This document shows, in pieces, positions 2,634 to 22,039 of a stretch of 24,927 bases of DNA. A model generated the notes under the pieces. It saw only the letters and a program-made list of their open reading frames with translations. It was not told the origin of the DNA and searched no databases. Numbering within the stretch: position 1 is the stretch's first letter; each line of letters opens with the position of its first letter. The translations under genes and the position numbers were made by a program. Origin of the DNA: a virus; the IMG/VR virus record IMGVR_UViG_3300047299_000186, positions 1-24,927 of that record; one strand, given 5' to 3'.

Positions 2634-3295
2634 TGTGGCACCGTCCGCGGGTCGTAGTAGCCAAGCGCTGTGGCTCCCCGTAATGTCCAACTTGCGGGGG
2701 GCGTGACAGGTGTGCCCGGCTTGTTGCCAGCGTTTACTGTGCCCGCAACACCTCCCGCACGCGCAGAGGACACACCGCCGTTGTTTGCGATAGTTTGCGG
2801 CGACACAAAGCGCACGTGTTCAAGCGTGATGTCGGCCTGGAGAACGCGCGCGGTAGCCACATCTTGCACGGCTTTCACGCTTTGGATACACATGGACGTG
2901 TAAAGTTCTAAGCCCGTTTGCACGTCCAAAAGTTCGAAGTTATCGGCCAGCAACTTGATCGCATCCCACGCGTTGCGTGATCGGGATTGCGACGTATTCA
3001 GACTGAAAATGTCGGTTGGTGTGCCTTGTAAATCTGCAACGGCCACAGTCAAAACAAGCACACGCGGCACCTGATAGGCGTGGTCATGAACGGAACCGCC
3101 CGTTTCAATAGGGTACTTCAACAGCTTGTTTTCGATGCCGTGCGCCTCTGTCACGACGGCGTCAAACGTCAACGTCCCGAAGTAGCGTTTTGCGGGCAGG
3201 ATGTTGACAATACCTGTGGCCACAACGTCAGAAGCGTTCGCGGCTTGCGCGCCCGCATCTGGGCCAATCTGCGAAGAGAAACCCGGTTGTGTCAT
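2630..3295 (-). CDS. Dit-like distal tail / baseplate protein
   Basis: This 221-aa protein starts at an ATG that overlaps the tape-measure stop (ATGA). The conserved core runs from 'FDAVVTEAHGIENKLLKYPI' through 'HAYQVPRVLVLTVAVAD' and 'LLADNFELLDVQTGLELYTS' to 'QADITLEHVRFVSPQ'. This is the pattern of the Dit-like N-terminal domain found in contractile-tail phages: it handles 'no-shift' attachment of the baseplate to the tube and often contains 'P...v.d.v..p..i.l.g.v'. The C-terminal ~50 residues are a Gly/Ala/Pro-rich low-complexity tail. The position right after the tape measure fits. Predicted to be cytoplasmic during assembly and then part of the virion. Confidence 0.7.
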   Translation of the reverse strand: MTQPGFSSQIGPDAGAQAANASDVVATGIVNILPAKRYFGTLTFDAVVTEAHGIENKLLKYPIETGGSVHDHAYQVPRVLVLTVAVADLQGTPTDIFSLNTSQSRSRNAWDAIKLLADNFELLDVQTGLELYTSMCIQSVKAVQDVATARVLQADITLEHVRFVSPQTIANNGGVSSARAGGVAGTVNAGNKPGTPVTPPASWTLRGATALGYYDPRTVPQ

Positions 3296-5049
3296 GGGTT
3301 CACCCCACTTTGCGCGTTGCGCGCGCGGCTTTTACGTTCGGCGGCCGCTCTTCGCAGTGCCTCGGGCACTTTGTCCGCATCAGGTGCGACCACTTTGTCA
3401 ATGTGAATCTGTGAGTTGTCATAGACCGCGGAGCTCTGATCCACTGTGTTAGCTGTGACAGTGGCTTTTTGTCCGGCTGTCAACGGCGTGACGGGTGAGG
3501 GCGGTATGCCTCCGTTCGTTAGGTTGGCAACCACGTTTTGCGAGATCCCGTTGTTCAGGTTTTCGAGCATCGCGCGCGCTTTATCCGTGGGCGACGTCCA
3601 AACTTTTGCCACCGCCTTGCGCTCTTCCTCGGCACTACTGATCAAGCCCAGATAACGCATGACATCCTTGAGGCCGTCGAGTGCTTTTTTGATAAAGGCA
3701 AAAACACCCTCGAAAACCGATGTAGCCACACCGCTTATCCAAAGGAACCCGTCAACCGTCCATTCAATACCCTTCGCGATACCGTTCACGGCGGCTTTCC
3801 AACCGATCACGATCGCATCCCAGATAACAGGGAGGGCGGCGCCCACGGCGTCAATTACGGGCTTAAGCGCAGCGATCACGCCTTTGAGAGCGGGAAAGCG
3901 TTCAATAAGCCGGCCGACAACAGAGTCACCTCCGTTGAAGTATGTCCACAGATCTTGCACAACAAGGGCCGCTATAGCGACGGCACCAAGGACAAGCGTA
4001 GTCAGTGTCAACGTACCACCGAGAGCCGCACTTGCTGCCATTGCCGCAGAGCGTATACCGGTCAATGATATGCGCACGCGCCCTAACATCAACAGAAAGG
4101 GGATGAACTTTTGAACAGCTAACACGGCGTAAAAACGCACGAAACCCGCTGTCACGAGAAACAAAGCCGTGCGCAACAGCACCAAAACCCACTTCATTTG
4201 TGAGATTTGCTTGGTGACCCATTGCGCGCTACTGACGACGCTTTGCACGGCGGCGCCGAAGATCTCGCCCCATAGACGCAAAATAGGCACGAAAATCGAA
4301 TTGAAAATCCCCACGATCGAATTTGTGACCACAAGAAAGGCATCGATGATCGGCATAAGCAAAGGCAAAGCCGACGCTGTCAACGATCTCAAAATCTTAT
4401 TGAAAGAGCCTTTGAGTTTAGCAAGGCCTTTGTCGACGTTGTCGGCAAGCGCGAAATCTGTATCGGTGAGATTCGATCCGGCAATTGCCGCCGCATAAAA
4501 ATCATCAAACGATTTGCTGCCGTCCTTCAACAGCGCGATGGCATGCACATCGATGCCTAGGCGTTGCGCCATGGATAAGCGCTCGCTTTGATCCATGCCC
4601 TGCATCTTGTCCGCAACGTCCTTCAAAACGTCGCGAATACCGCGGGTCGAACCATCGGCATTCTTCGCCTCGATACCGTACTTTTTGAAAAACTGCGCGC
4701 CGCGGCCGATCCCAAGGGAGGCTTGGCCGATCAAGCCTGTCAGGCTTTGGACAGTGCTTTCCCAGCCCTGCAACGTGACATCCGCAACCATTGCCGCTTT
4801 CGCGAAGGAAAAGATCTCGTTCGCGGACTGCCCCACCACTTCGGCGAACGAATTGACGTCGGCCATCTCAGTGATCGTGCCCTGCAACATCAAGCCAAGC
4901 GCGCCAAGCGCGCCCAGTGCCGCCAAAGACAGACCACCCATCCATTTTTGCAAACCGACGAGGGCATCTTGAAAAATGTTGATGCCTGTTAGATCAGGCT
5001 CGAAGCCCAGTTGAACGAAGAATGTGTCCAGAATTGTACCGTTAGCCAT
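3292..5049 (-). CDS. Tail tape measure protein
   Basis: This 585-aa protein starts at an ATG with the Shine-Dalgarno AGGTG 4-5 bases upstream, and overlaps the chaperone frameshift frame by 8 bp. It is mostly alpha-helical, with hydrophobic blocks at about 37-55 (LSLAALGALGALGLMLQG), 225-260, 290-320 and 335-365, typical of the membrane-active part of tape measures. The N-terminal 'SFAEVVGQSANEIFSFAKAA' and 'GLIGQASLGIGRG' segments are seen in related myophage tape measures. The C-terminus carries 'SQIHIDKVVAPDADKVPEAL', another common ending in this family. Using the usual ~0.15 nm per residue, the protein predicts a rather short tail of about 85-90 nm. It acts as the tail-length ruler and probably in DNA ejection. 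Confidence 0.93.
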   Translation of the reverse strand: MANGTILDTFFVQLGFEPDLTGINIFQDALVGLQKWMGGLSLAALGALGALGLMLQGTITEMADVNSFAEVVGQSANEIFSFAKAAMVADVTLQGWESTVQSLTGLIGQASLGIGRGAQFFKKYGIEAKNADGSTRGIRDVLKDVADKMQGMDQSERLSMAQRLGIDVHAIALLKDGSKSFDDFYAAAIAGSNLTDTDFALADNVDKGLAKLKGSFNKILRSLTASALPLLMPIIDAFLVVTNSIVGIFNSIFVPILRLWGEIFGAAVQSVVSSAQWVTKQISQMKWVLVLLRTALFLVTAGFVRFYAVLAVQKFIPFLLMLGRVRISLTGIRSAAMAASAALGGTLTLTTLVLGAVAIAALVVQDLWTYFNGGDSVVGRLIERFPALKGVIAALKPVIDAVGAALPVIWDAIVIGWKAAVNGIAKGIEWTVDGFLWISGVATSVFEGVFAFIKKALDGLKDVMRYLGLISSAEEERKAVAKVWTSPTDKARAMLENLNNGISQNVVANLTNGGIPPSPVTPLTAGQKATVTANTVDQSSAVYDNSQIHIDKVVAPDADKVPEALRRAAAERKSRARNAQSGVNP

Positions 5050-11361: not shown

Positions 11362-12224
11362 CGCACAATCCGAACCTTTCCAAGTACACCTTTGACGGGT
11401 GTGGTATCCCAAGTAGCCCCAGTGACAGCAACACGGCCAACACCCGCAGCGCCGGCCGTCGAGGTACCTAAGGCACCTGGCACCACAGAGCCTCCCCACA
11501 AACCGCCTGTAAAAGTGTTTCCCTGCGTAAGCGAGATCACAGCATCGCCGGCAACACCGTCTTCAGCGGCCACAGCATAAACGTTGCCGAAACGCATAAA
11601 AGGCACGGCAAACGACTGAGCATAATCGATCTGACCTGTTGACGACGCCGCACGCGCGAAGGGATTGCGCACCGAGATACCGACGATCACGTCAGAATCG
11701 AGCAGTGGTTGCGAGATGCGCCCATCGAAGTTCGAGCGCACAACAGCCACACCGAAGTCGACAGCGTTGACGGCCCACGCGGTACGTGTGCCGGCTGTGA
11801 GACCAAGAACGGCGTTTGCCGTCGAAGTACCGTTGACGTCAACAACAAGACCGTTCACGGCAGAAAGAACAAGCTGGTTACCGTTGGGACCGCCGATTTG
11901 CGCGTTGATCCCCGCCCATTCTGTTTTCGCCTTGATCGCTGCGATAAACGCCGCGAGCGAAGCCACGTTGCTACCAGCGGCCAGCGTGAGACCCGAGATA
12001 GCCGCACCATTGACACCCAACGAGAGCACTTTGGTCGTCAACGTACCCGCACCGTAAAGGGCGCCAGCGGTAGCATCGGCGGAACCGATCGCCATAAAGA
12101 TTTGACGGTCATTTATACCGCTGTCAACGACGATATCGCTTGTATCCGTGACCTGACCAGGCAACCCCACAGGAAACGTTTGACCGCCCGCGGTCGTGAG
12201 ATCGGGCATTGAATTGTAAGCCAT
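11358..12224 (-). CDS. Capsid cement (decoration) protein, gp24-like, with inserted domain
   Basis: This 288-aa protein starts at the ATG of a TAATG junction, with GGAG 7 bases upstream. The N-terminus (MAYNSMPDLT, then FPVGLPGQVTDTSDIVVDSG) and the C-terminal half match the 'structural cement protein' pattern. C-terminal segments are 'NAVDFGVAVVRS', 'DSDVIVGISVRNPFAR' and 'FMRFGNVYAVAAEDGVAGDA VISL'. Between them, residues ~41-150 carry an extra domain (ADATAGALYGAG, SLAAFIAAIKAKTEW, NQLVLSAVNGLVVDVN, NAVLGLTAGT) similar to one in the 230-aa tail protein and the sheath. It would trimerise on the capsid surface and stabilise the shell. It lies directly upstream of the capsid gene. Confidence 0.8.
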   Translation of the reverse strand: MAYNSMPDLTTAGGQTFPVGLPGQVTDTSDIVVDSGINDRQIFMAIGSADATAGALYGAGTLTTKVLSLGVNGAAISGLTLAAGSNVASLAAFIAAIKAKTEWAGINAQIGGPNGNQLVLSAVNGLVVDVNGTSTANAVLGLTAGTRTAWAVNAVDFGVAVVRSNFDGRISQPLLDSDVIVGISVRNPFARAASSTGQIDYAQSFAVPFMRFGNVYAVAAEDGVAGDAVISLTQGNTFTGGLWGGSVVPGALGTSTAGAAGVGRVAVTGATWDTTPVKGVLGKVRIVR

Positions 12225-12754
12225 TACACAGCTCCGAAAGTGAAGGGTACAGCAACGCCTTCTTGCGTTGCAGAGGTGGCGCCAAGAAGGGCGCGTGAGA
12301 GAGCTTCGTCACCTGCGCGCTTTGTGGGTGCGAGGGCGGTCATTGCTGTGACCGCACGACGTGCAAGATCTTCGTCGATCGTCTTGACGTCGACGCCAGC
12401 AAGGAAAGCGTCACGCACGGTCACATGCGCAGGTTCTTTGATGGCGGCAAGTGTGGCGCGGCGAAGCGTGATTGCGTCGTCAGTGTCACCGACGGTCACG
12501 CCGAAAGCCTTGGCGCTGTCACGTGCTGCCACAAGGTCAAGTGCGCGGGCGGCGATAGCCGCGGGGGCAAGACGGGCAAGCGCTTCATCGCGGGCTTTGG
12601 TCACGTCGGAGCATTCCGCGATCTTCGCGGTCAACGTCGTGGCCGCATCACTGGCGCTTTTGCGCGCCTTTTCGAGTTCATTTTGCAGGGTACTGACGGC
12701 CGCCGCAACGTCTTCCGAGACGTCAAAGGCGTGGTCGCCGATCGTTATTTTCAT
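12224..12754 (-). CDS. Internal in-frame scaffold protein (nested in protease gene)
   Basis: Inside the protease gene an ATG at 12754 (residue 197, MKITIGDHAFDVSEDVAAAV) is preceded by GGAGA with an 8-base spacer. It lies exactly at the boundary between the protease and the coiled-coil part. The product would be 176 aa: a short beta N-terminus, a helix (LQNELEKARKSASDAATTL) and a mainly helical C-terminus. The arrangement is the same as lambda C/Nu3, where a nested start makes the scaffold separately. The motif and position are visible; use of the start is inferred. Confidence 0.55.
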   Translation of the reverse strand: MKITIGDHAFDVSEDVAAAVSTLQNELEKARKSASDAATTLTAKIAECSDVTKARDEALARLAPAAIAARALDLVAARDSAKAFGVTVGDTDDAITLRRATLAAIKEPAHVTVRDAFLAGVDVKTIDEDLARRAVTAMTALAPTKRAGDEALSRALLGATSATQEGVAVPFTFGAV

Positions 12755-13342
12755 GTGTGTTTCTCCGTCCGCGATACGACATTGCGGCCCACCGCGGGCC
12801 CTGTCGACAACGGCAATGTGGTTGACGTGTATACGACGCATAATCGCGTCGTATGCTTGCCCTTCGGGGGTGGTGCCCGGTGTGGCGTCGTATTCAAAAT
12901 CGTAGCCACAAGACAAGGCGCCTTTGCCGCTGTCTATATCGCGAATCAAAGCGGCATCGCTGATCATGACACGCGCACCAAGAAGGCCATCTTGTGGACG
13001 CGCAACGGCATCGCGCACGTGACCCTTTGCAAGGTCTTTCCAATTTTTCGGCGTGACGTCTTCTTTGGGATGTTTGTCTGTGACGGGCTTATCCTCAACC
13101 GATGCCACAGCATCGGTGGCGAAGACCTCTTCGGCCGGACGATATAAGCGGATCGGTGCGGTGCCCGTCATGCCCAATTCATGCGGCAAATACGACTGCA
13201 CACCCACACGTGCAATAACAGCGTTTGCACGCATAAAGCCCTCACGTGTTCGCTCGCGCGAACTCCCGTCAAAGGCAATAGCGTCATGCACTTTAAGCAG
13301 CATGCGCGCATTGTGCGCGCGCATATTGCGAAAGTCTAGCAT
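12224..13342 (-). CDS. Prohead protease-scaffold (DUF2213-like)
   Basis: The protein is 372 aa from the ATG at 13342 (a TTG lies just before it). No clear Shine-Dalgarno is seen. A later ATG (residue 14, 13303) sits just below a 7-bp GC hairpin at 13304-13320. The first ~190 residues match the DUF2213 family: 'KPVTDKHPKED' with candidate catalytic His91, 'GALSCGYDFEYD' with Ser144, and 'IHVNHIAVVDRARGG'. The rest is a helical scaffold domain. The protease cleaves scaffold and capsid N-arms during prohead maturation. It sits upstream of cement and capsid genes as expected. A 45-bp gap separates it from the upstream spike gene, the longest gap in the head cluster. Confidence 0.85.
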   Translation of the reverse strand: MLDFRNMRAHNARMLLKVHDAIAFDGSSRERTREGFMRANAVIARVGVQSYLPHELGMTGTAPIRLYRPAEEVFATDAVASVEDKPVTDKHPKEDVTPKNWKDLAKGHVRDAVARPQDGLLGARVMISDAALIRDIDSGKGALSCGYDFEYDATPGTTPEGQAYDAIMRRIHVNHIAVVDRARGGPQCRIADGETHMKITIGDHAFDVSEDVAAAVSTLQNELEKARKSASDAATTLTAKIAECSDVTKARDEALARLAPAAIAARALDLVAARDSAKAFGVTVGDTDDAITLRRATLAAIKEPAHVTVRDAFLAGVDVKTIDEDLARRAVTAMTALAPTKRAGDEALSRALLGATSATQEGVAVPFTFGAV

Positions 13343-13387
13343 CAAGCGATCGCGAAGCTTAATTCTTCGGTGGACAGGTCTAGGGGG

Positions 13388-15487
13388 CTAGGCCGGCAAC
13401 GTAGCCGCAATGTGCGCGAAATACGCCGCATGCCCAGCCTGATTAGGGTGTATCCCATCAGGCACACGCGTGATGTCCGTCCACAGTGACCCATCGGCAT
13501 ATGTGCACCACGGTCTAGCAGCCGCCTCGTCGGCGATTGCCGTACGATACGCGCCCAGTTGACTGCCTTTACTGTTTGCAGCTTCCGAGTTTGCAGGGAT
13601 CGGGCTCTGCGCAATGATGACAGCGTTTGGAGCGCGCGCGTGGATAGCATCCAACAGCTGCCCATATATTGGACCAAACTGCGCCGCAGATAGAGTGGAG
13701 CGGTAGTAGTCATTGAACGCCAGCTCGACCCACACAACGTTTTGTGTGATGCCGTCCATTGCTGACACGACCGAATCGGCATAGGCACCCATTTGACCTG
13801 ATGCTGGATCGGATAGGTCCCACACGGCCAAATTGCCAGCAGAGCAGTTTGTTACGTTATAGACAGCGCCCAGCACGGGATCGTCACGCAACAGCTGAAA
13901 TGCACCATTTGTTGTGATGTGGCCTGACGTTGCGCCCGTAGCGATACTGTCTCCAACGACTACCAATCGACGATCTTTTGGCGGTGCTATGTACTGTGTG
14001 GCCACGCCTCGAAACATGAGATCCTGTACAGTTGCTGCGGACGTTGTCCACCCTGTACCGTTCCACATCGCGACGTTACCACCATCTCTAATACGATATC
14101 TGTGTGCGCCTGACACTGTTGGTGTTAGCACGCCAGACAATGCTGTTAGCGTGTTATAGCTAGTATGCACACCGTCGGTTGCGAGTTGGATCTCACTAAA
14201 AACCGTATCTGATGTACGTGTGTTTTTATACACCATGATGATTGATGTACCTGATGTGGCCTCAATCTCTATTTCCGCGGACGATGCTACCTCGCCCCAT
14301 GGTAATGGGATTTTTGGCACGTGGTTTTTCTGCGATAGAGTTAATAGACCGGCTGACTGGCGTGGCACCGAGTTCTGGTTGGATGTCAGAAACGCGCAAA
14401 GGAACACGTCCATGCCGCTACATAAAACGGCATATTGTGTTGTTGGACTAGGGACCGCAACCATTGTTGCCAGGTTGATCCATGACCCATTGTTGATGCG
14501 GGCCTGTATCAGGGTAGCCATTCCGCCGCCATATTCCCAATACAGTTCGAGCGGTTGCGATTTCGAAAAATTGAACACGCCTGACGTAACAACAACGTTT
14601 GCTCCACCAAGCCGCAACGTAACAACACCGCCTGACGACATTTTTAGGTTGTTGTCCGCATCGGCATACCACAGATATGCGGTTGCGGTTGCCTGGTTAG
14701 AGTTGCTTTTGGATCTAAATCGCATATAGCCATATTGACGTGCGCCATATGCTGTTTTTACAGTCAGAACGTCAGCGGGTTGAGATGCATTTGGCGTATA
14801 TTCGCGCAATACGCCATCGGTATCTAGCTGCACAAAATCTAAACACGCATCGCGTGCGCCAGCGGCTATGCCTCCATAGGCAGTTAGGTTGTCTCCTCTA
14901 ATAGAGTACAAAAAGCCAGGCGTAGAGTAGGTCGCAGTGACCATCTCCTTGCGTTCCCAGGCTGTAGATAGCGTGCCGTTGGTCACAGCAACAACTAGCG
15001 GAGTCGCAGAATACGCGCTACTCTGATAGGACTCGCCGCCAGCAACCCCACGTACCCAGATGGAGCACGTGGCTTTGGTTATAGGTGTGCTAGCTGACGC
15101 TGACACGTTGTTACCCGACGCACAGGTGGCACGTTTAGCATTACCCGTTCCATCTGGGCCTGCTAGGCCGGAATTAGACCATACAACTGTGCCGATAGGT
15201 GCTGTGTTATTCCACGCAGACGGATCACGCCCCCAAGTGGCGCCTTGCGCAATGAGCGCATTGCCGTGAGCTTGCTCAATTGAGTAGCCTAACTCCAGAG
15301 ACGATAGCTCACGACCTATGCCGCATTCGTTTTCTGACAACATTTTGAGAGTGTTGGTGCCAGTGCGCACGCTACCTGTAGACGCACGTGTAAATGATAC
15401 CGGTGGACTACTGGCCGACAAAAACCCGTAGAAGGTGGTGTAGTCAACATCACCATCGAAACCTAAAAACAAGCCGAGTGATCGCAT
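13388..15487 (-). CDS. Head-spike-like protein with C-terminal SGNH/GDSL hydrolase
   Basis: The protein is 699 aa from the ATG at 15487 (TAATG junction, GAGG upstream). Residues ~30-170 (SPPVSFTRASTGSVRTG, GYSIEQAHGNALIAQGATWG, LAGPDGTGNAKRAT) resemble the phage head-spike fibre domain. The middle is a beta-rich, lectin-like part. Residues ~506-699 are an SGNH esterase with all blocks: GDS (Ser514), the Gly of 'NCSAGNLAVWDL', 'AFND' (Asn592) and 'DGIHPNQAGH' (Asp677, His680). It would deacetylate or de-esterify a surface polysaccharide. Sampled 60-base lines of this gene are about 47-50% GC, against 65-75% in sampled lines of neighbouring head genes, so it may be acquired. It sits in the head cluster, not with tail fibres. 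Confidence 0.8.
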   Translation of the reverse strand: MRSLGLFLGFDGDVDYTTFYGFLSASSPPVSFTRASTGSVRTGTNTLKMLSENECGIGRELSSLELGYSIEQAHGNALIAQGATWGRDPSAWNNTAPIGTVVWSNSGLAGPDGTGNAKRATCASGNNVSASASTPITKATCSIWVRGVAGGESYQSSAYSATPLVVAVTNGTLSTAWERKEMVTATYSTPGFLYSIRGDNLTAYGGIAAGARDACLDFVQLDTDGVLREYTPNASQPADVLTVKTAYGARQYGYMRFRSKSNSNQATATAYLWYADADNNLKMSSGGVVTLRLGGANVVVTSGVFNFSKSQPLELYWEYGGGMATLIQARINNGSWINLATMVAVPSPTTQYAVLCSGMDVFLCAFLTSNQNSVPRQSAGLLTLSQKNHVPKIPLPWGEVASSAEIEIEATSGTSIIMVYKNTRTSDTVFSEIQLATDGVHTSYNTLTALSGVLTPTVSGAHRYRIRDGGNVAMWNGTGWTTSAATVQDLMFRGVATQYIAPPKDRRLVVVGDSIATGATSGHITTNGAFQLLRDDPVLGAVYNVTNCSAGNLAVWDLSDPASGQMGAYADSVVSAMDGITQNVVWVELAFNDYYRSTLSAAQFGPIYGQLLDAIHARAPNAVIIAQSPIPANSEAANSKGSQLGAYRTAIADEAAARPWCTYADGSLWTDITRVPDGIHPNQAGHAAYFAHIAATLPA

Positions 15488-15948
15488 TAGTGCCTCGTAG
15501 ATACGATGTAAAAAGTCACACTCACAAGCAAGCCGCCCGCGAGAAAACAGAAACCGATAAACGCAGCCACGTTGCGCAACGTGGTCTTGATCTCGGTCAC
15601 GGCCACGCTTTGCGCGGCGATCATCACGGCGTGTGCATTGATCTTGCTTTCCGTGTCCATGAAACGAACGTCGTGGCCGTCGAGCCGCGTTTCCACAACC
15701 TTCACGGCGGCACACGCTGCTTTGTGGGCGCTCTCACGTAAAACGTCAGGCAGATCACGCAACGGCGCCAAGCCGTCGCGAATCGACGTGCTCATTTTGT
15801 GGATGCTATCCGTGGCCGTCGCAAGGCGATCTAGGACCTGCGCGTGGCGAATAGGGGGCGGCGGCTCCGACGGTTCGTCCGTGTCCTCTTCGTCAGGCAG
15901 GGTACCTCGTATTGTGCGGCGCGGGTTCATGGATGGTGTGTATGTCAT
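15487..15948 (-). CDS. C-terminal tail-anchored membrane protein, unassigned
   Basis: This 153-aa protein starts at the ATG of an ATGA overlap. It has three parts: residues 1-35 are acidic and Pro-rich (DEEDTDEPSEPPPPIR); ~36-125 are helical, with heptad-like spacing (RLATATDSIHKMSTSIRDGL and later segments); and ~127-149 form one strong membrane span (VAAFIGFCFLAGGLLVSVTF) followed by only four residues. This topology suits a tail-anchored membrane protein. It is odd between the MuF and head-spike genes. Possible roles are a holin-like or spanin-like lysis factor, or a virion membrane-interacting protein. I do not recognise the family. Confidence 0.75.
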   Translation of the reverse strand: MTYTPSMNPRRTIRGTLPDEEDTDEPSEPPPPIRHAQVLDRLATATDSIHKMSTSIRDGLAPLRDLPDVLRESAHKAACAAVKVVETRLDGHDVRFMDTESKINAHAVMIAAQSVAVTEIKTTLRNVAAFIGFCFLAGGLLVSVTFYIVSTRH

Positions 15949-16790
15949 GTTATATCGTCAAAGAGTGGAATAGCCGAACACCTACACGCCACCGGATGAC
16001 CCGGATTCAACGCTTCGCCATCCGTTCCACTATCAGGGGGGTCGTCGAACCGGAATTCAAGACCTTCAAGTTCAACGTGTTGTTTGCGCACGCGCTCGTC
16101 TTGCGACGTGCTCCAAATGTAGCGCTCAACGCCAAGATCGCGAAGCCTCTGCTCGTTCGCCGTGCTTGTGATCTTGGCCATTTGATCGCGCGCAATGAAC
16201 GCTGCGCGGCGATCGGTCACATCGCCGATGGCTTCGATGTCCGCCGCGATAGCCTCGGCGCGTTTGCCCCCCTCGAAAGCCGCTGTCACAAGTGCTTGCA
16301 CGCGTTCGAGGTGTTGCACGGGAATGCTCTTGATCAGAGCAACGTTGTCTTTGATCGCGGCTTGAAAAGGGACCTTCGTTTTGCCCTTGAAAAACTCACG
16401 CGCATCAATACCCGCCAGCGCCTGGGCGTCTTCGTCAACCCACTGTGCGCCCGTCTTCTGCGCGGCTAAAACAACGCGTTTCGCGATAGGTTGCGCGCGC
16501 TTACCGAACATCGCCGCCATGATGGCACCGGCCGCAAGAAAGCCCGCTGCGATCATCGCATAATTGGTGCGTTTGGTTGTGTCGACGAACACCGTGTCGT
16601 CTTCGAAGGTTTCATCATCATCGTCAGGTTCATCCGGCCAAGGAAGAGCCGCCACCGTCTTACGTGTCTGCTCCCTCAAAGCGTCCACAAGGGGGCGCAG
16701 CAGGGACGCGTAGGCCGCTGCAAGGGCATTACGCGCGCGTGCACGTCGCCTATGCAGCTGGTTGATGGCGGCTTTCGAGGGCTTTTTCAC
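15945..16790 (-). CDS. MuF-like minor head protein (SPP1 gp7-like)
   Basis: The protein is 281 aa, starting at the GTG (16790) of a GTGA overlap, with GAGG 7 bases upstream; a start at 16829 would overlap the preceding gene further. The C-terminus (residues ~228-281) has 'TSQDERVRKQHVELEGLEFR' and 'NPGHPVACRCSAIP', the hallmark of the MuF/SPP1-gp7 minor head domain. Residues ~77-95 (YAMIAAGFLAAGAIMAAMF) are hydrophobic enough to be a membrane span, which is unusual for this family. The first 50 residues are very basic and may contact DNA. It probably sits at the portal vertex and is ejected or helps assembly. Confidence 0.85.
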   Translation of the reverse strand: MKKPSKAAINQLHRRRARARNALAAAYASLLRPLVDALREQTRKTVAALPWPDEPDDDDETFEDDTVFVDTTKRTNYAMIAAGFLAAGAIMAAMFGKRAQPIAKRVVLAAQKTGAQWVDEDAQALAGIDAREFFKGKTKVPFQAAIKDNVALIKSIPVQHLERVQALVTAAFEGGKRAEAIAADIEAIGDVTDRRAAFIARDQMAKITSTANEQRLRDLGVERYIWSTSQDERVRKQHVELEGLEFRFDDPPDSGTDGEALNPGHPVACRCSAIPLFDDIT

Positions 16791-17116
16791 GGCACGTCCT
16801 CGTAAATGTCCATGAGTTGTTGCGACCACGCTTCCACAAGCATCTCGGCCTCATCGGCATGTGGGCCGCCCTTGAATTCGGCCGCGAAAGCAGCGATCTG
16901 CTCCGATGCGTCGGCGAGGGTTTCAGCCCCAAAAATACGGTCCTCCCACTCGGTCAAAACGTTAGCCGGTAGGTCGTTTGTGGTTGCTGCGGGTGCGGCG
17001 TCGTCTGCGGCCAGGTAAGCCTCGTATGTCGCATCGTCCATCAAGACCGCGGGAGTGTGGCGAGGGTCGTTGACAAAGCCCAGAACATCGGTGTTTTCGT
17101 CCAATATAGCCGTCAT
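16787..17116 (-). CDS. Small acidic protein between portal and MuF, unassigned
   Basis: This 109-aa protein has a start ATG preceded by GAGG that overlaps the portal stop (AAGTGAGGCAGC-ATG), and its stop overlaps the MuF-like gene. It is strongly acidic (many Asp and Glu, few basic residues), with predicted helices in the second half (ETLADASEQIAAFAAEF, DEAEMLVEAWSQQLMDIYED). There is no membrane segment or known motif. Head-assembly chaperone or portal-associated factor are possible roles by context only. Confidence 0.7.
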   Translation of the reverse strand: MTAILDENTDVLGFVNDPRHTPAVLMDDATYEAYLAADDAAPAATTNDLPANVLTEWEDRIFGAETLADASEQIAAFAAEFKGGPHADEAEMLVEAWSQQLMDIYEDVP

Positions 17117-17122
17117 GCTGCC

Positions 17123-20100
17123 TCACTTTATAGCAAGTAAACGATCGTTTAGTGCCCGTCTTTCTTTAGACGTGTGCTTGTTGGGCGCACCCAGACCCTG
17201 TTTTACCACAAAAGTGTGGGCAAGAGCGTAGCCGTCAGGATCACGCTTACGCAACTCTTCAGGGTGGACGTGATAACCTGTGACCGTTTCAGCAAGGTAT
17301 TCCTGACGATTTTCACGTGCATAAATACTTATCGACTGCCTTGTGCGCTGGGCGTTAGCATGTGCCGCTGTGAGCGCACGATCAAGCATGACAGCGCCCT
17401 TGTCGCCTGACTTCACAGCGGCGTTGAGCTGGCCGTGCGCAATATGGGCACTCTCATGGATCAACGTGGTCGCGTAGGCACCCACCTTTTTACTACCCGG
17501 TACTAAGGGAGGCGTCCCCGCGTGGTAGTCGTACTGTATAGGCTCGCGGTTAGTGCGCATAAAAATACGCGGTACGGCGCCTTTACCACCGGCCAAGGCA
17601 TGCTTTTCCGCGGCATGCATTTCAGCGTATGCCGCCGCTTGATCATCACTGTACGTGTGCGACGCACCATCCGCGCGTGGTTTATTAAACGACTCATACC
17701 AATGGGTTTCCACACCTGTGCGCGCTATTGCCGCGGCAAGATCATTGTGCGCGCCCAGTTGGCGGATAGCCTCATGCACAACAGGTGTGTGAGGTGTGTG
17801 CACCCTGCTCGCCTCGTGCAAAGGCGTTTTAGGGCGTTCGGCGTGCGGCTTGCCATAGCCGGTGTGTTTCACGAAGTCGTGCGCCAGTGCGTACGCTGTT
17901 GGGTTATTGGCGTGTAAATAGTCCGGATTGTGATGATACGCGGCCACAGCTTCGGCGATGAATTCCTTCTCGTTTTTGTGGGCGTATTTCGAAAAAGCAT
18001 CTTTACCAGCGGCTTTGTAGCGGTCTGGGATGGTCTTGCCTGTTTTCGGATCAACATGAGCCGGCTCATCCAATACGCTTTGCGCACGGTGCGCTTTCTC
18101 AATGCGATTAAGCAACGCTTGTGCCCGCTTGCTGTTGTCCATCAACAGATCATGATGCGCGGCGTGAGCACCTTCGTGTGTCAGTGTAATGGCCAGTTTC
18201 TCCGATCGTGTTTTCGCGGCTTTGGATATCGACCACAACGAGCCGGGTACCGCCGCCGATGACTGAAAGTCGTTCAAATCAGCGCCTATACGGATCTGAC
18301 CGGTAGAGGGGTTATATGTACCATAAGCGCTTGTTTTAGCGCCTTTTGCGTCGACATACGTCGAGCGATCGATAAAAGTTACGGTTTTGCCTTGGCGGGC
18401 AAGATACTCGTGCACGCCTTCAGGCATGTGCCGTTTGCTGTCAGCAATATCAGCGTGGTGTGTGGCGTCTTTCACACTGGCATCAACGTTCAGCGTTTCG
18501 ATCTTAGGCTTGACAGTCTTCGGCGCTTTCGGCGCCTTCATGGCTTCTTTTAAGCCTTTCGTGGTCGACTTCACACGGTCTTTCAGCGTGCCGTGCTCTT
18601 TGACGTGCTCGGTGTGAGCTGTGACGTGCTCGTGCAAACGTTGCGCAGCGGCCTGTATTTTCGCGGAGTGCCCACTTTCAACAGCTTTCGAGAGTGCAGC
18701 TCTTGCGCGTGAGATCTTACCTCGCAGAGAGTCCTTTTTCTTTGTGGATTCCGCGAAAGCATTGCGCGCAGCCACATGCTCGCTACGTGCGGCGCCCAAG
18801 GCGCCCCCAACAGACCATCGGCCGAACTCGTCACGTGGTTGATCCTCCCAGCCATCGTCCACGCGTAAAGTACGCGACCACACGTCAAAAGCGTCCAAAG
18901 CCTCGTCAGCGTCGGACAAGATCAAAGCGTCTTTTGGGGACGCCACAAGACTACCATCCTTCGCACTCGCGGTCGAAGTGTCTTTTTCCAGCACGGGATC
19001 CTCGCCGCCCTCGCCGTCTTCGGGGGGCTCACCCTGCAGATCGTTCGGATCTTCGGGATATTGCGGCTCTGGACCCTCTTCTTCGGCCGTTTCGAGCTCC
19101 TTGATGTCGTCGTCGGTGATCTCGTATTGCCCCAGTTGCTTCAAACGCCTTGCAACCGTCGACGGTTTGAGCGCGCCCATGTCGACGTAGGTTTTCGCGG
19201 TGCTTGCCTCGGTGGCCTCGGTGGTGGCTTTGACACTGGATGCCTCTTTCAGCAGAGGGTTAAAACAAAATGTGTAGTCATCCGGTAGATCACCGATCTC
19301 ACTACGCGCCAAGATCTCGAAAAGCACTGACAAACGTGGGCGAAGCTTGGTTTCTTGGTTGCTGGCGATCGCGTTGTAGTAGTTTTGCAGGTCGCTCTCA
19401 CCTGTCGCAGTCAGTCCCGCGGGTGACTGCCCATATAGCCGCGTAAACGGGATATCAGCGGCGCCTGACACGTTGATCTGCAGTTTCTCCATAATAGCGG
19501 ACAGCTCCGCGAAGGAGCGTTGGCGCGTCTCGTACGTTTCTTCTTTATCAAGAAGCAACACATGCATCCACGATTTCATCATGGTTGCCATGGACCACCG
19601 CTCACGAAGAGCGGAGCCCTCCCCCTGCGCGGCAAGCATGGCGAGATCTGGACTGTGTACGATGTCGAAATTCGCTTCGTGAATCATAGACACGATGGCT
19701 TGTTGCGCGGTGTTTACGGCCTTGATCGCGTCATTCGATGACTGCAGAACGGAGTCATTCCACCGGTTATTTTGTGTCCACAAATTCCACGGTAGGATGT
19801 CGCCATCGAAACGCACTATGCGCGTGTAGTGCACGCTCGTGCCGTTCGCGAGGTCATAAAACTCGGGGAAATCGAAGTTCGGGCTTTCAAGCTGTGAATC
19901 AAGCGTGCCAGTGCCTTGCGCACGCCAGCGATCCAACACACGCAAATAACGCAATTGCCCCTTTTTAGTCTTGTGGTAATCGAAAGGCTCGCGCAGTTCC
20001 ATGACGTCGGTACCGGTAGAAACACCGAGGAAAATGACAGATCCGCCATAGCAGCGCGCATTCCATTCGGCCTCGTAAACGCGTTCACGCACGTTGAACT

Positions 20101-20446
20101 TCGTTTCAGCCTGCACCATTTTCGTTGCAAAATCTTCGCTGCTCGGTGCCTTGTGCGTGACCCACTCGCGCGTTGCATCGGCCGCGGGAACGGTCACAAT
20201 CTGACGTGATAGCCAATCTGATCGAAACTGATCTTCGATGGTTTGCCGGCTCAAAGCGGAGGACGGCGCCCACTCCGAATGCATCGCCTTGTCGCCACTA
20301 CCACCAAGCCCGGAAGCCATGTTTATGAGGCCGTCACGCACGCTACGGGCGGCCATCGCGTCAACAGCCTTGTGCGCGTTGACAAGTGCATCGGCCACTT
20401 TAGGACGTGTACGGAAAAGGTCGGTGATGCGGTCAAAGACACTCAT
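17123..20446 (-). CDS. Portal protein fused to two zincin-like metallopeptidase domains
   Basis: The protein is 1107 aa from the ATG at 20446, which overlaps the TerL stop (ATGA). Residues ~1-440 are a DUF1073-type portal (RYGGSVIFLG-like 'ARCYGGSVIFLGV', 'FTRLYGQSPAGLTATGESDL'). An acidic Pro-rich linker (~450-490) and 'WEDQPRDEFGRW' (533-544) follow, then a basic helical part (~550-640). Two related domains end the protein. The first (~675-867) has HEGAH at 757-761 and 'NEKEFIAEAV' (Glu828/Glu832). The second (~905-1088) has HESAH at 997-1001 and 'NRQEYLAETV' (Glu1049/Glu1053). HExxH plus a downstream Glu is the gluzincin pattern. The usual portal is 400-550 aa, so the added half is exceptional. 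The substrate is unknown; possible targets are the virion, scaffold or a host protein. Confidence 0.88.
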   Translation of the reverse strand: MSVFDRITDLFRTRPKVADALVNAHKAVDAMAARSVRDGLINMASGLGGSGDKAMHSEWAPSSALSRQTIEDQFRSDWLSRQIVTVPAADATREWVTHKAPSSEDFATKMVQAETKFNVRERVYEAEWNARCYGGSVIFLGVSTGTDVMELREPFDYHKTKKGQLRYLRVLDRWRAQGTGTLDSQLESPNFDFPEFYDLANGTSVHYTRIVRFDGDILPWNLWTQNNRWNDSVLQSSNDAIKAVNTAQQAIVSMIHEANFDIVHSPDLAMLAAQGEGSALRERWSMATMMKSWMHVLLLDKEETYETRQRSFAELSAIMEKLQINVSGAADIPFTRLYGQSPAGLTATGESDLQNYYNAIASNQETKLRPRLSVLFEILARSEIGDLPDDYTFCFNPLLKEASSVKATTEATEASTAKTYVDMGALKPSTVARRLKQLGQYEITDDDIKELETAEEEGPEPQYPEDPNDLQGEPPEDGEGGEDPVLEKDTSTASAKDGSLVASPKDALILSDADEALDAFDVWSRTLRVDDGWEDQPRDEFGRWSVGGALGAARSEHVAARNAFAESTKKKDSLRGKISRARAALSKAVESGHSAKIQAAAQRLHEHVTAHTEHVKEHGTLKDRVKSTTKGLKEAMKAPKAPKTVKPKIETLNVDASVKDATHHADIADSKRHMPEGVHEYLARQGKTVTFIDRSTYVDAKGAKTSAYGTYNPSTGQIRIGADLNDFQSSAAVPGSLWSISKAAKTRSEKLAITLTHEGAHAAHHDLLMDNSKRAQALLNRIEKAHRAQSVLDEPAHVDPKTGKTIPDRYKAAGKDAFSKYAHKNEKEFIAEAVAAYHHNPDYLHANNPTAYALAHDFVKHTGYGKPHAERPKTPLHEASRVHTPHTPVVHEAIRQLGAHNDLAAAIARTGVETHWYESFNKPRADGASHTYSDDQAAAYAEMHAAEKHALAGGKGAVPRIFMRTNREPIQYDYHAGTPPLVPGSKKVGAYATTLIHESAHIAHGQLNAAVKSGDKGAVMLDRALTAAHANAQRTRQSISIYARENRQEYLAETVTGYHVHPEELRKRDPDGYALAHTFVVKQGLGAPNKHTSKERRALNDRLLAIK

Positions 20447-21834
20447 TTTCGGAAGTTTGCCATAAATGCGGACCCTTGAATACACAGATTGAAAGCACCG
20501 GCAAACGCGTCGACACGATCGTCGTGCACACCTTTTCGAGGAAAAGCATCGAGTTCGGTCAAGAAAGCCTCGTTCCACCCCGCACGCACCACATCGATAT
20601 TTCCCGCTTGCCATTGCGCCGCGCACATAACCGCGCGCGTTTCCTTGTCGCCACTCTCACGTGAGGCTGTCGCGCGGAACCCCGCCAACAGTTTGATCAG
20701 GCTGGCGACTTGGCTTTTTCCGGCCTGACCAGGGTCTTGCGGTAGCGAGATCTGCACACCTCGGCCATCGCTTTCAGCTGTTTTTCGTATCAGTTCCTCG
20801 ACTTTGTGGGCGCGCCAACGGCCGGCGATGACGTCCAAAACAACCCAACGCCCATCACGATACTGCCCCACCAACACGCCAGCCGTGTAATCGGGATCAG
20901 GGTTGACCTCGGAGGGCTCCGACGCTGCGAGATCCCAGTGGCGCACGCGTTTCATGATCGCGCTTTGATCGACCGCATCCACAATAGGCGCCGCGGTGCG
21001 CGGGAAGTAATCGCCTGCCGATGGCCTCACTTTCCAGTTACCGCCCAACAAACGAGCACGTTCGACACGCGGCAGGTTGTCAAGGTTCGCGATGTACTCG
21101 CGGTTAATCTTCGGGTTATCCGACAGTTTCGCGGCGATAAAGCTCACGCTTTTTGGGTAGCACCCCTGTTCGCCCTTCGCGCGCTGCTCGTCTGTCGTGG
21201 GAAACTGTGCATGCAGCTCTTCGGGCGTGTCGGCCCAGTGCACCACGTCGCCACGACGTACCATCCAACGGACAACGCCCGAGCGATCGGGAATGGCGAA
21301 ACCCTCTTCGTCGATCCACCACGCCAAGAACGTCGCGAGCCATGAATCCGCCGACGGGTTGCACGTGCAACGCACATACGGACGCACGCCGCACGAAGAG
21401 CGGTTTCGGCTCAACAGATACCAAAACTGGCTTTCCGCGAAATGTTGCACTTCGTCAAAGACCAAGCCACAGATCTCGGAACCGTCGAACTTGTGCACAT
21501 CGTCTTCGCGTTGTGCCGATCCGAGCTGGATCGCGCCACCATTCGGCCACGTGAATGTAAGGGTCGTGTGGTTTAGTCGAGCACCACGAGGCACCCACAA
21601 GGCTTTGACAGCGTCGAGAAGTCCGCCTTTTTGCTTGATGTCGACCTGCTCCCGTCGGAGGTACACCGCCACGAAACCCGGGACCGTTGGCGCATGGCGT
21701 AAGCCCTCTAAACCGATGGCAAACGTCTTACCACCCCCTGCGGCTCCGCCGTAGATCACGATGTCCGCACTGCATGACAAAAAGGCCGTTTGCGGCCCCG
21801 GATTCGGGCGCCGCACGATTGTTTGCTGGTTCAC
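20443..21834 (-). CDS. terL: Terminase large subunit (TerL)
   Basis: The protein is 463 aa from the GTG at 21834. The frame stays open upstream but through another gene, and the family usually has only ~10 residues before 'RPNPGPQ'. The ATPase part has Walker A GGAAGGGKT (29-37), Walker B 'LVFDEV' (Asp127, Glu128) and the 'CNPSADSW' coupling region. The C-terminal RNase-H-like nuclease has 'HWDLA' (Asp301), 'PQDPGQAGK' (Asp367) and 'HDDRVDAF' (Asp438/439, Asp442). It translocates DNA into the prohead through the portal and cuts concatemers. All key residues are present. The start codon lies in a perfect 11-bp hairpin. Confidence 0.95.
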   Translation of the reverse strand: MNQQTIVRRPNPGPQTAFLSCSADIVIYGGAAGGGKTFAIGLEGLRHAPTVPGFVAVYLRREQVDIKQKGGLLDAVKALWVPRGARLNHTTLTFTWPNGGAIQLGSAQREDDVHKFDGSEICGLVFDEVQHFAESQFWYLLSRNRSSCGVRPYVRCTCNPSADSWLATFLAWWIDEEGFAIPDRSGVVRWMVRRGDVVHWADTPEELHAQFPTTDEQRAKGEQGCYPKSVSFIAAKLSDNPKINREYIANLDNLPRVERARLLGGNWKVRPSAGDYFPRTAAPIVDAVDQSAIMKRVRHWDLAASEPSEVNPDPDYTAGVLVGQYRDGRWVVLDVIAGRWRAHKVEELIRKTAESDGRGVQISLPQDPGQAGKSQVASLIKLLAGFRATASRESGDKETRAVMCAAQWQAGNIDVVRAGWNEAFLTELDAFPRKGVHDDRVDAFAGAFNLCIQGSAFMANFRK

Positions 21835-21856
21835 CCGCCTAATATGGCGGGTGAAC
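21829..21856. repeat. Perfect 11-bp inverted repeat over the TerL start codon
   Basis: Left arm 21829-21839, six-base loop 21840-21845, right arm 21846-21856, with no mismatch. In the minus-strand message the GTG start of TerL and the GGCGG before it are both in the 3' arm. A tiny frame (ATG at 21860 to TGA at 21831, nine codons) runs through the hairpin and ends in a GTGA overlap with the TerL start. The structure could control terminase translation. Confidence 0.7.
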
Positions 21857-21865
21857 GCATTGTGG

Positions 21866-22039
21866 TCAACCGCGGGGTGCGCGCATTGTCTCGCGCTCCC
21901 TACGTCGCGTTGAGTACGCCAGTGCAGCATCAAGCTGCAAGCGCAACGCTGCAACACGCGCGTTTGCGGCATCCAGTGCAGCCACAAGCTCTGCGCGGCC
22001 GCGGAGCAGCTCCTTTTCCAGCTCGGTTAGATCAGGCAT
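21866..22039 (-). CDS. 57-aa coiled-coil protein
   Basis: This 57-aa protein starts at an ATG with AAAGGAG 8 bases upstream. It overlaps the previous gene's stop by 8 bp. It is almost entirely one amphipathic helix (DLTELEKELLRGRAELVAAL, then DAANARVAALRLQLDAALAY) with leucines in heptad spacing, and ends in a basic tail (STRRRERETMRAPRG). The position directly upstream of TerL is that of a small terminase subunit, but it is far too short for one and lacks a helix-turn-helix. It could be an oligomerisation partner or a terminase accessory factor. Confidence 0.65.
   Translation of the reverse strand: MPDLTELEKELLRGRAELVAALDAANARVAALRLQLDAALAYSTRRRERETMRAPRG

Follow-up and report, generated by a model that had tools for sequence, protein, structure and literature searches.

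A metallopeptidase domain is present in 20% of putative MuF toxins (PMC5576092). Polyvalent proteins are described in PMC5512222 as virion-linked, multidomain proteins with lethal-factor-like metallopeptidases that sometimes occur in multiple copies, and the same paper records portal and MuF proteins that are fused to a 2H phosphoesterase or a PBECR RNase domain. Here, we analyzed a 24,927-base viral contig fragment (IMG/VR record IMGVR_UViG_3300047299_000186; hereafter the window), the one contig from which the portal fusion described below was read. Its portal gene, P0001, continues through an acidic linker into two putative zinc metallopeptidase domains of the zincin type. On balance, we favor the view that P0001 is a true portal with tandem lethal-factor-like (M34-like) zinc metallopeptidases, most likely a virion-packaged effector that is delivered to the host.

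The portal gene and its C-terminal extension

P0001 is built from the following parts.

17123..20446, minus strand: portal gene P0001 with predicted C-terminal zincin domains, 1107 amino acids (aa), single open frame
19097..20332, minus strand: portal domain, residues 39-450 (Phage_portal_3 / HI1409 family; PF06381 E=3e-84, phrog_146, TIGR01555, Pam3 portal 8hds E=5e-51)
18845..19126, minus strand: acidic linker, residues 441-534
18815..18841, minus strand: conserved peptide QPRDEFGRW, residues 536-544; the pattern QPRDExGRW is widespread in viral DNA
18497..18793, minus strand: spacer, residues 552-650, Ala/Lys/His-rich and helical by eye from the sequence
17843..18496, minus strand: predicted zincin domain 1, residues 651-868 (M90/ATLF Pfam matches, family profile, AlphaFold2, Foldseek)
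17162..17821, minus strand: putative zincin domain 2, residues 876-1095, a homologue of domain 1 with a less certain fold (blastp, profile, model)

The gene starts with ATG at 20446 and is stop-free down to 17123. With 1107 aa it is about twice the usual size, as a previous sequence-only reading of this DNA had remarked, since most of the open reading frames that match the portal, in 80 viral and 34 bacterial contigs, measure 430-500 aa. The PF06381 match covers residues 69-417 and scores 283 bits against a curated cut-off of 33.8. The linker that follows is acidic, again as expected from that reading, with 32 Asp/Glu and 6 Lys/Arg in the 95 residues 441-535. It contains no stop codon, and the frame is open through it. 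G+C content shows no jump across the linker, and third-position GC falls gradually toward the gene end. Start codons within the linker are preceded at most by a weak Shine-Dalgarno-like sequence (GTG codons 485 and 501), and a separate product from an internal start is therefore unlikely. For the spacer, the profile library search returned no specific family above cut-off. The same order of portal, linker and zincin was found in two further contigs, L120 (1110 aa) and L179 (700 aa), while a sibling contig, L008, is 76% identical and breaks off just past the portal domain, at the junction.

Active-site motifs and predicted fold of the putative zincin domains

Both C-terminal domains contain a complete set of candidate catalytic residues.

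18164..18178, minus strand: HEGAH, residues 757-761, predicted zinc-binding motif of domain 1
17984..17986, minus strand: Y821, counterpart of the lethal factor catalytic Tyr728 in the profile alignment
17951..17965, minus strand: EFIAE, residues 828-832; E828 aligns to the third zinc ligand of lethal factor, Glu735
17444..17458, minus strand: HESAH, residues 997-1001, predicted zinc-binding motif of domain 2
17321..17323, minus strand: Y1042, counterpart of the lethal factor catalytic Tyr
17288..17302, minus strand: EYLAE, residues 1049-1053; E1049, putative third zinc ligand

The sequence-only reading had named the two HExxH motifs and a downstream E(F/Y)(I/L)AE, which we recovered at these positions, and its coordinates 17183-18424 correspond to residues 675-1088 and span both domains. 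A blastp comparison (E = 2e-13, one-sequence database) shows the two domains to be homologues. In the profile alignment E828 and E1049 fall on Glu735 and Y821 and Y1042 on Tyr728 of lethal factor, residues whose roles have been described (PMC3496994), so that by alignment each domain has the two His, the general-base Glu, the third-ligand Glu and the catalytic Tyr. The Tyr, which was absent from the search pattern used in our survey (see below), stands at -7 from the ligand Glu in 79 of the 100 motif matches listed. In composition shuffles a protein contained 0.15 HExxH motifs on average, and not one of 20,000 shuffles had an HExxH with E[FY]xAE 30-80 residues behind it.

Assignment to a described peptidase family was less straightforward. 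ATLF (PF07737) matched domain 1 with 19.1 bits, under the curated cut-off of 27.4. Peptidase M90 (PF06167, MtfA) scored 33.2 bits against the whole protein, above cut-off, with a best stretch of 41 residues at the third-ligand helix; each domain alone matched over this helix under cut-off. As the match is limited to one helix, the M90 assignment was rejected. A profile built from domains 1 and 2 alone had lethal factor as top match, aligned at the ligand helix, with an insignificant E=0.72. When 46 related phage domains made up the profile, lethal factor reached E=8e-9 and Pro-Pro endopeptidases followed lower in the list, E-values that are inflated since all rows except the two from the window were picked by motif. 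A profile that itself includes domain 2 found this domain with E=3e-28. Instead of such E-values we rely on the Tyr, which lies outside the pattern, and on two contigs selected by their portal (L359 and L362, see below).

Structure prediction, a check proposed by the sequence-only reading, gave a good zincin model for domain 1 (AlphaFold2; predicted local distance difference test, pLDDT, 79.2; predicted template modeling score, pTM, 0.78). The best Foldseek matches of this model in the PDB were lethal factor (probability 1.00, E 7e-3) and PPEP-2 (0.99). The earlier claim of zincins of the M34/lethal-factor kind is thus supported for domain 1 by sequence, profile and predicted fold. For domain 2 it is supported by sequence and active-site motif, but the predicted fold was poor and the designation as a zincin is less certain.

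Recurrence of head-linked zincins

Direct searches were complemented by a survey of viral contigs with the DNA pattern HE-x-[GA]-H...E[FY]xAE, from whose listed matches 40 representatives were drawn. Of the proteins drawn, 16 were MuF proteins, two were Phage_portal_3 portals (L120 and L179) and one was a Phage_portal protein. Among the matches listed, the zincins closest to domain 1 reside on MuF proteins (L118, L107). In two Spirochaete contigs, chosen by portal and not by motif, the portal is followed by a MuF gene that matches the zincin profile; L359 also has a Pfam ATLF match under cut-off, and L362 has a weak profile score alone. A profile search of bacterial genome contigs with the MuF-zincin subgroup yielded no relatives. 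An HExxH tail is absent from all 80 viral portal relatives, so that portal-zincin fusions are rare in the Phage_portal_3 family. Zincins of the predicted lethal-factor type recur at the C-terminus of MuF proteins, and at least two further Phage_portal_3 portals carry one there. In L120 and L117, genes after the portal also have a zincin motif, and a tag-like peptide (see below) occurs in the L120 open reading frame 794-1708.

The portal C-terminus as a site of exchangeable cargo

Acb1, an anti-CBASS phosphodiesterase, occupies the same portal position in Rhizobium phage RHEph04 (L006) and in L339 and L341, with Pfam E-values from 1e-44 to 3e-35. The statement of the sequence-only reading that portals are normally non-enzymatic was too strong, in view of these fusions in the same family and of the 2H and PBECR portal fusions reported in PMC5512222. 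In L002 a portal of the Phage_portal_3 family has a long coiled-coil-like tail as its sole extension. On Phage_portal proteins, the conserved peptide is followed by a pesticin-type lysozyme (L240 170-2557) or by DUF6883 (L261 6252-8354). Judged from these sequences, the C-terminus of Phage_portal_3 portals is an exchange site for effectors, namely Acb1, a P-loop-like protein and zincins, and the predicted lysozyme and DUF6883 cargo belong to other portal families. By eye, 2H-like portal tails were seen in L007, L049, L063, L087, L340, L345, L347, L354 and L356, and portals extended C-terminally by about 250 residues, with GGPKHGKTT as a P-loop-like motif, in L034 (5312-7393) and L038 (5956-8097).

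A conserved peptide in head-linked proteins

The peptide ahead of the zincin domains, hereafter the tag, was searched at DNA level. The pattern QPRDExGRW was matched by at least 119 viral DNA stretches and the reversed pattern by one. The consensus around it reads K-[FY]-D-P-D-QPRDExGRW-T-x-GGG. Of 113 non-redundant instances, 90 have Phe/Tyr at -4 and 71 have Gly at +12, two positions outside the search pattern; in the copy of the window, position -4 is Gly and -3 is Trp. These 113 instances comprise 108 different 27-mers with mixed codons, and we therefore judge a DNA-level recombination site less likely. A literature text search for QPRD with phage gave no match, and the peptide seems to be undescribed so far.

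In 59 tagged proteins, we obtained 12 matches to portal families and seven to MuF. Further domains were Zeta toxin, ADP-ribosyltransferases, Acb1, pesticin, an RNase A-like domain and an acetyltransferase, and some tagged proteins have no recognized head or effector domain. In all nine individually examined tagged proteins with a portal or MuF domain, this domain lies N-terminal to the tag; effector modules come after it. In mycobacterial and Nocardia phages, genes whose annotation is head maturation protease open with a similar peptide; the evidence there is the peptide itself and its position, since tblastn E-values are about 5-8. Examples are Mycobacterium phage Konstantine (L364 gp15, 2995-3768) and Nocardia phage P3.1 (L365 2992-3702), in which FNPRQPRDRFGRW and FNPRQPRDLRGRW, respectively, start the annotated protease. 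Other instances of the tag, at loci L208-L326, lie in portals, MuF proteins, modular effectors and other phage proteins. One protein in L207 contains several related tags, of which two or more precede zincin modules, and one in L238 (3033-6674) combines a zincin, the tag and a topoisomerase IB domain, in this order.

We tentatively suggest that the consensus might be a general cargo signal of the phage head, for procapsid loading or release, common to portals, MuF proteins, N-termini of head maturation proteases and modular effectors, with the portal-zincin protein as one client. If this were true, portals would serve as standard carriers of anti-host enzymes that can be swapped for one another. 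Were the tag a real signal, virion-packaged effectors could be predicted from sequence, and the way in which head cargo is loaded and released would become testable.

Head-gene neighborhood

Profile library scans identify a minus-strand head and tail module of myovirus type in the window, in the order terminase, portal, 109-aa gene, MuF, 153-aa gene, SGNH-hydrolase gene, DUF2213 head protease, cement protein, major capsid protein and tail sheath. The portal gene is thus located between the terminase and the MuF/head genes.

20443..21987, minus strand: terminase large subunit (context; library matches)
15945..16829, minus strand: MuF head-morphogenesis protein, 294 aa (PF04233 at 176-287 of 294)
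13388-15715, minus strand: SGNH/GDSL hydrolase gene, inside the head module between the MuF and DUF2213 genes
12224..13345, minus strand: DUF2213 head maturation protease (PF09979, phrog_530)

The MuF protein of the window stops at its MuF domain and carries no C-terminal cargo. P0001 contains no PF04233 match, so it is not itself a MuF toxin; MuF is a separate gene. An esterase gene in RHEph04 is placed similarly to the SGNH/GDSL hydrolase gene.

Proposed function and alternative explanations

In the effector reading, the portal C-terminus would have gained tandem zincins through the acidic linker and the tag. Up to 24 zincin domains of a portal 12-mer would surround the DNA channel in the capsid lumen, stored in the head like MuF cargo. 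Upon infection they would be released, at the linker or tag, or co-ejected, and would cleave a host protein. The portal crown sits inside the capsid. Portal C-termini form this crown, as described for P1 (PMC12810830). From this anatomy we infer a lumenal location for the zincins, just as we infer that they are catalytic, come free at the linker or tag, reach the host and act on a target there. Of the two roles raised by the sequence-only reading, virion processing and delivery, the latter is favored since unrelated effector enzymes are interchanged at this portal position, and the exchange of such anti-host enzymes, together with the presence of a dedicated head protease, favors an effector over a maturation enzyme. 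Autoproteolytic release would be compatible with both roles.

Several points weigh against this interpretation. The exact fusion was seen in a single contig, and direct searches of phages, plasmids and viral contigs found no close homologue of the C-terminal half of P0001. The Foldseek result for domain 1 is weak, with a best E of 7e-3, TM-scores near 0.4-0.5 and a high root-mean-square deviation. The model of domain 2 (pLDDT 66) is good only around the active-site helices and its N-terminal sheet is not confident, which suggests that this domain may be divergent or partly degenerate. The 12-mer state and the lumenal location are borrowed from the portal family. Portals are not known to exit the capsid, and delivery would need cleavage or partial unfolding of the portal.

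The zincins could instead be a self-processing or maturation protease that cuts its own linker or head proteins in the procapsid. A long acidic linker and the tag do stand ahead of the zincin domains, and the authors of PMC5512222 propose autoproteolysis for metallopeptidase domains of polyvalent proteins, citing the processing of DdrB in phage P1. However, this phage already has a head maturation protease of the DUF2213 type, most portal relatives lack such a domain, and in other phages the same portal position holds non-proteolytic enzymes; we regard a maturation role as unlikely. We think it quite improbable that the zincins are wholly or partly idle, be it as structural modules (lumen-facing and DNA-organizing, or a plug) or as a degenerate second copy. 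The missing confidence in the N-terminal sheet of domain 2 would fit such a role, as would the L002 portal with its coiled-coil-like tail only, but both copies retain all catalytic residues including the Tyr, which idle copies tend to lose. An assembly or sequencing artefact that joined the portal gene to a downstream metallopeptidase gene could be suspected from a single 24.9 kb contig whose nearest sibling breaks off at the junction. Against this stand the frame that is open through linker and tag, the portal-linker-zincin frames of L120 and L179, and the frequency of tag-bearing portal fusions, and we give the artefact very little credence. The virion-packaged effector remains our preferred explanation.

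Comparison with known systems

Like the MuF toxins of temperate phages (PMC5576092), P0001 combines a head-located protein, adjoining the portal in their case, with a C-terminal effector, but here the MuF protein is cargo-free and the zincin is in tandem. With polyvalent proteins it shares virion-linked, here putative, lethal-factor-like metallopeptidases, sometimes in several copies in their case, and portal-effector-enzyme fusions have already been noted in the accessible text of PMC5512222. P0001 differs in its effector content, which is one domain type in two copies with no other enzymatic domain, where polyvalent proteins have several unrelated effector domains, and that text does not mention a portal-metallopeptidase fusion.

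Anthrax lethal factor/ATLF (MEROPS M34) and the Pro-Pro endopeptidases provide the best fold and profile matches of the P0001 zincins, and share with them HExxH, the Glu ligand in E-x-x-A-E and the catalytic Tyr seven residues earlier. Unlike lethal factor/ATLF, P0001 stands in a phage structural context, has low identity, scores under the Pfam ATLF cut-off and has no toxin-delivery domain of the lethal factor type. Portal-Acb1 fusions (RHEph04; prophages L339 and L341) likewise consist of a Phage_portal_3 family portal and a C-terminal effector, and RHEph04 has the same downstream order as the window, MuF, small gene and SGNH/esterase gene; their cargo is a 2H phosphodiesterase, whereas that of P0001 is a predicted peptidase. 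Head-protein/effector fusions are thus a known kind, of which a portal with tandem zincins is a rare example. The finding adds a putative tandem lethal-factor-like peptidase, placed on the portal through which all DNA passes, to the enzymes carried by phage head proteins.
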